Shown: piece after piece, positions 9,538 to 29,198 of the stretch
Position numbering within the stretch: the first letter of the stretch is position 1
Layout of the letters: each line of letters begins with the position of its first letter
Source: Oscillospiraceae bacterium
Lineage (GTDB): Bacteria; Bacillota; Clostridia; Oscillospirales; CAG-272
Length of the DNA stretch: 32,142 bases
NCBI GenBank assembly: GCA_015064065.1
Contig: SVSY01000012.1
Location: 1-32,142, forward strand
Reading direction: 5' to 3'
Notes under the pieces: generated by a model
Seen by the model: only the letters and a program-made list of their open reading frames with translations
The model's database searches: none
Told to the model about the DNA's origin: nothing
Made by a program: the position numbers and the translations under genes

Positions 9538-10251
9538 ATGCGTAAGAAAGTAGTTGGAATATCTCACTCGGGCGATGCTGCAGAGGGAGTTTGCAGAATC
9601 AGTCAGGAATATATAAACAGTCTGATAGGCGCGGGGGTAATGCCAATTATACTTCCGTCTGCGACTGACGAAGAGAGTATTGAGCAGATGCTTGATATGT
9701 GCGATGGGATCTTGCTGTCAGGAGGACCCGATATAGAGCCTGCTCGATACGGCGAACAAAAGATAGAAAAATGCGGGGATATAAGTGCGGAGCGCGATGC
9801 GTTTGAAATTCTTCTTACACAAATGGCTGTAAAAAAAGATAAACCCGTTCTTGCTATCTGTCGCGGTGTGCAGATGCTCAACGTTTGCTTTGGAGGAACT
9901 CTTTGGCAGGATGTTCCGTCCCAGATAGAAAAGTCGCTGCAACATTCTACAGTGGAAAAAAAGCTTGCGGAACATACAGTGGATATAGTAGACGACAAAA
10001 TTTTTGACATTATAGATATCACAGATAAGAAGATATCGGTAAACAGCTTTCACCACCAAGCTGTAAAAAAGCTTGCGGACGGTTTTAAGATATTTGCGGT
10101 ATCAAAAGAGGACGGGGTAATAGAGGGGATATATATGCCTGAAAAGAAATTTGTTGTTGGATTTCAGTGGCACCCCGAGAGAATGACAGAATACGATCAG
10201 AATGCGATAAATATTTTTAAGGCATTTTCTGATTCGATGAAAAATTTTTAA
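9538..10251 (+). CDS. Gamma-glutamyl-gamma-aminobutyrate hydrolase-type class I glutamine amidotransferase (peptidase C26)
   Basis: VVGISHSGDAAEG, GILLSGGPDIEPARYGE, KPVLAICRGVQMLNVCFGGTLWQDVPSQ, FHHQAVK, GFQWHPERM. Confidence 0.92.
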   Translation: MRKKVVGISHSGDAAEGVCRISQEYINSLIGAGVMPIILPSATDEESIEQMLDMCDGILLSGGPDIEPARYGEQKIEKCGDISAERDAFEILLTQMAVKKDKPVLAICRGVQMLNVCFGGTLWQDVPSQIEKSLQHSTVEKKLAEHTVDIVDDKIFDIIDITDKKISVNSFHHQAVKKLADGFKIFAVSKEDGVIEGIYMPEKKFVVGFQWHPERMTEYDQNAINIFKAFSDSMKNF

Positions 10252-10318: not shown

Positions 10319-10394
10319 GCACCTTTAGCTCAGTTGGTAGAGCAACTGACTCTTAATCAGTGGGTCCCGGGTTCGAATCCCTGAAGGTGCACCA
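10319..10394 (+). tRNA. tRNA-Lys (anticodon CUU), CCA encoded
   Basis: GCACCTT...AAGGTGC acceptor stem, TAGCTCAGTTGGTAGAGCA D arm, ACTGA-CTCTTAA-TCAGT anticodon arm, TTCGAAT T-loop, terminal ACCA. Confidence 0.97.
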
Positions 10395-10438
10395 TAAAAA
10401 TAAGAGAGACCGATAAAATCGGTCTCTCTTATTTTTAT
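10394..10438 (+). terminator. tRNA-Lys terminator
   Basis: 21-bp perfect stem ATAAAAATAAGAGAGACCGAT-AAA-ATCGGTCTCTCTTATTTTTAT directly abutting the CCA end. Confidence 0.85.
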
Positions 10439-10571
10439 CGCTTCACAAAACGGTTCGAACCCCGCGACGAGACGCAAAGCGTCCGTCGCTAAAGCTTGCG
10501 CTACCGCTGCATAAACGATAATATGGTATTATTGCGCAAGCATAGGGTTCGATATCCCTGAAGCTTAACGA

Positions 10572-10601
10572 CAGACCGACATCGTCGGTCTGTTTTCTTT
10601 T
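10572..10601 (+). terminator. Terminator-like hairpin of repeat unit A
   Basis: CAGACCGAC-ATC-GTCGGTCTG-TTTTCTTTT. Confidence 0.7.
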
Positions 10602-10735
10602 ATTCGTTCACATAACGATTTGAACCCCGCAACGAGACGCAAAGCGTCCGTTGCTAAAGCTTGCGCTACCACAGCACAGACGATAATATGAAATAAAGGC
10701 GCAAGTATAGGGTTCGAATCCCTGAAAACAGTTCG

Positions 10736-10766
10736 CAGACCGACGATGTCGGTCTGTTTTCTTTTA
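10736..10766 (+). terminator. Terminator-like hairpin of repeat unit B
   Basis: CAGACCGAC-GAT-GTCGGTCTG-TTTTCTTTT. Confidence 0.7.
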
Positions 10767-10900
10767 TTCGTTCACATAACGATTCGAACCCCGCGACGAG
10801 ACGCAAAGCGTCCGTCGCTAAAGCTTGCGCTACCGTTGCATAAACGATAATATGGCATTATTGCGCAAGCATAGGGTTCGATATCCCTGAAGCTTAACGA

Positions 10901-10931
10901 CATACCGACATCGTCGGTCTGTTTTCTTTTA
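10901..10931 (+). terminator. Terminator-like hairpin of repeat unit C (one mismatch)
   Basis: CATACCGAC-ATC-GTCGGTCTG-TTTTCTTTT. Confidence 0.6.
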
Positions 10932-11153
10932 TTCGTTCACATAACGATTCGAACCCCGCGACGAGACGCAAAGCGTCCGTTGCTAAAGCTTGCGCTACCG
11001 CCATACAAACACGGTCTGCCGTTTTTTATTGTTAATAAAACTATTACTGTAATAAAATTTGAAAAATTCTATTCCATTTGATCGAAATATGTGATATAAT
11101 ATATTGAGAATGCTTGATGTGCATAATTTACTTTGTTGAAAGGGAGGAAAGCC

Positions 11154-28886: not shown

Positions 28887-28940
28887 CCAAAACAAAAACG
28901 GACGTCGTTGACGTCGATATTATGGAGAGAAAGACAATTG
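28887..28940 (-). repeat. Degenerate copy of tRNA-Val 3' tail plus terminator
   Basis: CCAAAACAAAAACGGACGTC at 28887 is identical to the terminator arm at 29082 (195 bp apart); adjacent GACAATTGG matches the tRNA-Val 3' end. Confidence 0.75.
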
Positions 28941-29081
28941 GCATTTGCAATTCTTTGCGTTCCGCTAAGAATTGCAATATTCCGCGCCTTGCCGCTTACA
29001 AGCGAGCTTGACGCGCTCTTCGGCGGAAATGCGAACCAAATTCGCGCTTTGCGCGAGTTGTTTCGTTCAAATAAATCTCTG

Positions 29082-29124
29082 CCAAAACAAAAACGGACGT
29101 CAACGACGTCCGTTTTTGTTTTGG
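29082..29124 (-). terminator. tRNA-Val terminator
   Basis: 20-bp perfect stem CCAAAACAAAAACGGACGTC-AAC-GACGTCCGTTTTTGTTTTGG, overlapping the encoded CCA. Confidence 0.85.
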
Positions 29125-29198
29125 TGGAGACAATTGGGATCGAACCAATGACCTCATGCATGTCAAGCATGCACTCTAACCAGCTGAGCTATGCCTCC
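29122..29198 (-). tRNA. tRNA-Val (anticodon GAC), CCA encoded
   Basis: Minus strand GGAGGCATAGCTCAGCTGGTTAGAGTGCATGCTTGACATGCATGAGGTCATTGGTTCGATCCCAATTGTCTCCACCA; anticodon arm CATGC-TTGACAT-GCATG. Confidence 0.97.

Follow-up and report, generated by a model that had tools for sequence, protein, structure and literature searches.

Gene-free repeat units of about 165 bp behind tRNA genes, with ends that match the host T-arm: candidate mobile cassettes

What is the repeated DNA that follows a tRNA-Lys gene in an Oscillospiraceae genome, and how might it have come to lie there? The window, the whole 32,142-nucleotide stretch analysed here (contig SVSY01000012.1), contains a single array by Tandem Repeats Finder, at 10419-11001, with a period of 165, 3.5 copies and 86% matches. 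The first-pass annotation had described, 3' of the tRNA, a row of units of about 165 bp, three complete and a fourth truncated, built from hairpins, a T-arm mimic and a terminator, and explained by no ORF. The coordinates bear this out: the array occupies 10439-11005, with units starting at about 10450 (A), 10615 (B), 10779 (C) and 10944 (truncated D); the listed hairpins, T-arm copies and terminators are all in place, and the longest stop-to-stop stretch in the array is 68 codons, with no ORF to account for it. A CRISPR array is ruled out, as entire 165-bp units repeat at 86% matches, not short repeats with unique spacers.

All of the parts lie on the forward strand. The anchor is tRNA-Lys(CTT) at 10319-10394 (ARAGORN; 69.4 bits with the Rfam tRNA model), and its T-arm, CCGGGTTCGAATCCC, is the sequence copied by the units; its terminator hairpin, a 21-bp perfect inverted repeat located by inverted-repeat search, occupies 10394-10438. 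Unit A (10450-10604; 132.5 bits with the covariance model described below, and supported by sequence and folds) has a closing stem of 10455-10462 with 10545-10552, hairpin 1 at 10464-10489, hairpin 2 with arms at 10494-10501 and 10534-10541, the T-arm copy (T-copy) at 10544-10563 and a terminator at about 10569-10604. Unit B (10615-10768; 127.4 bits, direct repeat and folds) repeats this order: hairpin 1 at 10629-10654, hairpin 2 arms at 10659-10667 and 10698-10706, a T-copy at 10709-10727 that reproduces GGGTTCGAATCCCTGAA of the tRNA exactly, and a terminator at 10736-10768. In unit C (10779-10934; 131.7 bits and a fold), the same elements lie at 10793-10818, at 10823-10830 and 10863-10870, at 10873-10892 and at about 10900-10934. 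The T-copy reads GGGTTCGATATCCC in A and C and GGGTTCGAATCCC in B. Unit D (10944-11005; Tandem Repeats Finder ends the array at 11001) consists only of the strand complementary to the T-arm (anti-T), hairpin 1 and the 5' arm of hairpin 2, and is a partial-quality match at 40.8 bits. Several other arrays likewise end in a unit with the left half but no T-copy (L020 at 2084-2184; L017; L101), and the cut point differs between arrays.

The conserved shape is a three-way junction. The 5' GAACCC strand of the unit pairs with the 3' GGGTTC of the T-arm copy, closing a junction of closing stem, hairpin 1 and hairpin 2, which the terminator follows. The first-pass annotation overlooked this pairing of the 5' GAACCCC with the 3' GGGTTC; what it called a T-arm mimic is indeed a T-arm copy, but it is not an isolated T-arm hairpin, as its 5' half is a strand of the closing stem. 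Units A and B fold better than 200 of 200 dinucleotide shuffles (z -5.4 and -7.4). Across 33 units, standard pairs fill 95.1% of cells (slid controls reach at most 45.3%), 21 of 27 pairs show changes on both sides, and shuffling lowers the covariation score from 0.406 to 0.133. Watson-Crick pairs make up about 96% of hairpins 1 and 2. Among about 2980 cells, G-U pairs number 52 and A-C pairs 19, an excess that hints at constraint on the tRNA-sense strand, read with the proviso that the covariance model itself tolerates G-U.

The unit is not confined to the window. By blastn it also lies, in the source genome, 3' of a second tRNA-Lys, of tRNA-Gly(GCC), tRNA-His and tRNA-Leu(GAG), and near one contig end. 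A first covariance model, built from ten cores of that genome, matches 12 genomes, the source genome among them, of the 59 that were sampled as relatives; the match in G043 (L051) is weak and lacks the unit anatomy. The refined model, R2, finds matches in 53 of 248 genomes of the bacterial family (drawn evenly from a larger group) and in 19 of its 71 genera, and none in 287 other genomes sampled from the class. The figure of 53 is a lower bound, because the models miss diverged units such as the Leu units of contigs C100 and C103, and copy numbers are minimal, because many assemblies are fragmented and arrays often sit at contig ends. As GGGTTC belongs to the modelled closing stem, the models favour T-arm look-alikes; they do not favour proximity to a tRNA. 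Dispersal over many tRNA loci, which the first-pass annotation had not noticed, rules out an artefact of assembly in one contig, as it extends over the source and related genomes. That annotation had named recurrence at many tRNA loci with conserved structure beforehand as support for its reading, and this is what the genomes hold; the outcomes it had named as adverse did not materialize, as structure is conserved in relatives and, in a scan of the array with Rfam 15, only the tRNA-Lys exceeded its gathering score, the units having no match. The family is apparently undescribed: no published account of it was found in the open-licence literature, and a published RNA named HOLDH, followed as a lead, yielded no relevant open-licence paper.

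A positional survey covered 179 units in 128 arrays. A tRNA gene on the same strand precedes 97 of the arrays, in 95 of these at 46-62 nt from the tRNA end; the hosts carry 27 different anticodons, and no array is inverted. Another 21 arrays run into contig or locus ends, leaving ten exceptions. Four of these (L101, L106, L161 and L162) are preceded by a tRNA 3' remnant and two (L089 and L167) by the end of a large serine recombinase gene; one (L148) lies farther downstream of a tRNA-Ser, and L090 (two) and L091 make up the rest. At L090 (contig C128 of G107), two near-identical units, at 2724-2833 and 10123-10232, stand 7.4 kb apart with no tRNA within 20 kb, flanking apparent sugar-metabolism genes.

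The most unusual property of the family is that both ends follow the host. The right end copies the host tRNA from the T-stem onward, over 6 to at least 20 exact bases, and the left end reproduces the T-arm of that tRNA in reverse complement. T-copies agree with their own host at 10.2 of 12 positions, compared with 6.65 (sd 0.13) when hosts are shuffled, and left ends at 3.84 of 6, compared with 3.18 (sd 0.05). The copy is commonly interrupted by a single inserted base (87 of 129 units: T in 45, A in 41, G in one), placed exactly between TTC and the purine that comes next in the T-loop. If the host loop reads TTCAA, the insertion is mostly of two bases, as a rule GT. Of the 24 cases with an extra base at both ends, 22 have bases that are complementary to each other. 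In the window, unit B lacks the T-loop insertion, and A and C have an extra T one base further on (GATATCCC).

Units turn over beside the tRNA. The two tRNA-Leu(GAG) loci of the source genome (C94 and C105) have their distal units in common and differ in the tRNA-proximal one; the proximal unit on C105 shares its terminator stem with the unit that follows tRNA-Gly on C127. G119 has two tRNA-Gly loci at which one pair of cassettes stands in opposite orders, each with its own tail. Presence is patchy even within genera: G172 has 14 matches, and its congener G035 (98% complete) none at 27 tRNAs that are last in their operons; the source genome has many units, and its congener G010 (95% complete) no genuine one, the lone call being a neighbouring tRNA. 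These checks used a descriptor keyed to each tRNA's own T-arm, with a reversed-upstream control that gave zero; it is strict, and misses some true units in the source genome, for example at tRNA-Lys. This contrast, with units numerous in some genomes and absent from close relatives, favours an element that moves or multiplies in bursts over a host RNA under conservation. Recent movement is evident only in places, as near-identical cores at different tRNAs are few (11 pairs, each within one genome). No before-and-after pair was seen among strains of one species, and around the tRNA-Lys a search for an empty site by way of the downstream gene met poor synteny among relatives.

An account of these units must accommodate their anatomy and covariation, the anchoring to tRNA genes, the host-specific copies, the patchy presence and the turnover beside the tRNA. 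The reading preferred here, to which we give a probability of roughly 60%, is that they are mobile elements of a cassette-like, non-autonomous kind, whose integration at tRNA T-loops duplicates the 3' end of the tRNA; from the features above we infer an insertion event, a step that recognizes folded DNA and an enzyme. A cassette would run from the tRNA 3' end through terminator, short tail, anti-T strand, hairpin 1 and hairpin 2 to the T-copy. The integration site would be the T-loop of the tRNA gene; insertion there would keep the upstream tRNA whole, since the cassette supplies a 3' half, and the old 3' half would be pushed to the right end of the cassette, where it would become the T-copy. 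The stem of anti-T and T-copy, with the two hairpins, is most probably what the moving enzyme would recognize, as single-stranded or cruciform DNA. Two adjacent copies of the tRNA tail could then recombine unequally, giving tandem arrays such as that in the window. The first-pass annotation had offered two ideas, small structured RNAs or an amplification of tRNA tail plus terminator with a selfish or regulatory role; the second, in its selfish form, fits better, because tails match the host, presence is patchy within the genus and turnover occurs next to the tRNA.

Another way to understand the units is as small structured RNAs, transcribed under their own promoter or by read-through from that of the tRNA, with a role in tRNA processing or as ligands of a protein with affinity for T-arms. 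Covariation is strong, orientation never departs from that of the tRNA, a terminator closes each unit, and G-U outnumbers A-C in the stems; nevertheless, a terminator lies between the tRNA and the first unit, no promoter has been established, and G-U makes up <2% of hairpin cells, which is low for a conserved RNA. Nor does an RNA evidently need copies of 6 to at least 20 tRNA bases beyond the stem, have a match in Rfam or readily explain patchiness within a genus. Patchy presence and copied tails together favour folded single-stranded DNA over RNA, not decisively, and we regard an RNA family as an unlikely explanation that deserves to be taken seriously. If the action is at the level of DNA, it might still require neither enzyme nor function: the units could be by-products of replication, made by template switching or slippage at T-arms and kept perfect by hairpin-templated repair, which could also yield near-perfect Watson-Crick stems such as those observed. 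The T-arm sequence GGGTTCGAACCC is near-palindromic, the host T-arm is copied at both ends with one copy inverted, tandem arrays and truncated last units fit, no recombinase tracks the units, and other T-arm-bounded hairpin pieces lie at other tRNAs of the source genome. Yet the same three-way architecture recurs in 19 genera of one family and in none outside it, with related cores at different tRNAs, which bespeaks a family with descent rather than repeated accidents; a single fixed site for an inserted A or T in the T-loop would also be unexpected. Such an origin is distinctly improbable.

Least probable, with only a slight chance of being right, is that ordinary integrative elements or prophages once occupied these tRNA genes and left the units behind as worn ends (attR remnants). 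Displaced 3' fragments of tRNA do mark islands in tRNA genes (PMC4383910, PMC9897764); phage Ms6 uses a tRNA T-loop for recombination, with a core of 26 bp over the same stretch (PMC1762012); and units at L089 and L167 begin just downstream of where a large serine recombinase gene ends. Against this, one covarying fold in 179 copies is not what different islands would leave behind, nor are arrays of near-identical units; phage and plasmid records give no match, and the L167 island joins at the CCA end of the tRNA, not at the T-loop.

If the units are mobile cassettes, what would move them? In the genomes examined, neither a dedicated recombinase nor an autonomous, gene-bearing partner was found. 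RAYT/IS200 is rejected as the mover, as Y1 transposases show no association with the units: 23 of 53 unit-positive genomes have one, as do 69 of the 195 that are unit-negative, and the source genome has none. Integron integrase (TIGR02249) exceeds its cut-off in none of 16 unit-bearing genomes, several of them incomplete. A tyrosine recombinase of about 340-370 aa, Xer-type to judge by its size and ubiquity, is present in nearly every genome searched and four unit-bearing genomes (G166, G083, G158 and G197) have one tyrosine recombinase only; unit-rich G250, G187 and G203 have no serine recombinase. A dedicated enzyme of either class is rejected for its inconsistent presence across unit-bearing genomes. 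A phage or plasmid source was sought by blastn of such records, with no match. The mover may possibly be the host Xer-type recombinase, an enzyme since lost, or general recombination. At L089 (G119:C30; 10677-12353, minus strand) and L167 (G151:C52), the large serine recombinase genes end at tRNA 3'-end remnants; the L089 island seems, read by eye, to encode caspase-like, TIR-like and AAA-type proteins. These islands were dropped as autonomous partners because L167 joins at the CCA end and the three unit-rich genomes just named lack serine recombinases.

Other repeats share this neighbourhood. In the window, a second, different hairpin cassette bounded by T-arm sequence lies at about 28900-29121 on the minus strand, behind tRNA-Val(GAC) (29122-29198), in the order GGTTCG, CATTTCCGCCGAAGAGCGCG...CAAATG, tRNA-tail copy, terminator-like repeat; pieces resembling it lie 3' of tRNA-Pro(TGG), Glu(TTC) and Cys in the source genome. 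In G010, a different dispersed hairpin repeat (ATCCAAGCCGCAGGCTTGGCATATCATC and variants; L263, L282, L287, L294 and L296) starts immediately 3' of the terminator at several tRNA genes (His, Val, Arg, Trp, Leu), which suggests that tRNA terminators are general insertion hotspots here.

Mobile DNA classically docks at tRNA genes, where the known occupants mostly measure kilobases and bring an integrase with them. If the preferred reading is right, a gene-free family of 165 bp, with 27 host anticodons and ends fitted to each host, would serve as a minimal model for mobility aimed at tRNA genes, and would also be a source of tRNA-tail pseudocopies and extra terminators. As with islands and prophages in tRNA genes (PMC4383910), the host tRNA is whole at one end and a displaced 3' fragment lies at the other; the duplication extends from T-stem to acceptor end, like the core of the Ms6 integrase, a T-loop type (AGGGGTTCGAATCCCCTTAGCTCCAC; PMC1762012). 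Unlike such islands, the units are about 165 bp long, lack an integrase gene, share a conserved three-way-junction fold, form tandem arrays, carry an extra base in the T-loop copy, show the host T-arm in reverse complement at their left end and span 27 anticodons.

REP/REPIN-RAYT sequences and MITEs are also short, gene-free, hairpin-forming and dispersed, with inverted-repeat ends; in the units, the terminal inverted repeats of a MITE correspond to anti-T and T-copy. The units differ in lying only at tRNA genes and in having ends that follow the host tRNA. Their direct duplication is a tRNA tail rather than a short target-site duplication, no related autonomous element was seen, and Y1 transposases show no association of the REP/RAYT kind. 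The double-hairpin elements of fungal mitochondrial DNA are likewise tiny, hairpin-forming and thought to be mobile, and no enzyme is known to move them; the units differ in their bacterial chromosome, tRNA anchor, T-arm closing stem and accompanying terminator.

The core of an integron attC site has the consensus GTTRRRY / RYYYAAC, which the T-copy (GTTCGAA or GTTCNGA) does not fit. Integron cassettes otherwise resemble the units in forming an array on a fixed anchor, in fixed orientation and with variable inner hairpins, and attC in being a folded site of low sequence conservation, often with an unpaired (extrahelical) stem base (PMC8946536); unlike them, the units have no cassette ORF, no integrase above cut-off and a tRNA gene as anchor, and the likeness is an analogy only. 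It is conceivable, if on balance doubtful, that they form a cassette system distinct from integrons, in which the tRNA T-arm would be the fixed site and the folded three-way junction the mobile one, entry would occur next to the tRNA, both ends would come to match each new host, and a host Xer-type or other enzyme would do the work. Should cassette movement prove real, the units would offer a testable example, beyond integrons, of recombination on folded DNA; among known systems, they are filed with tRNA-targeted mobile DNA.
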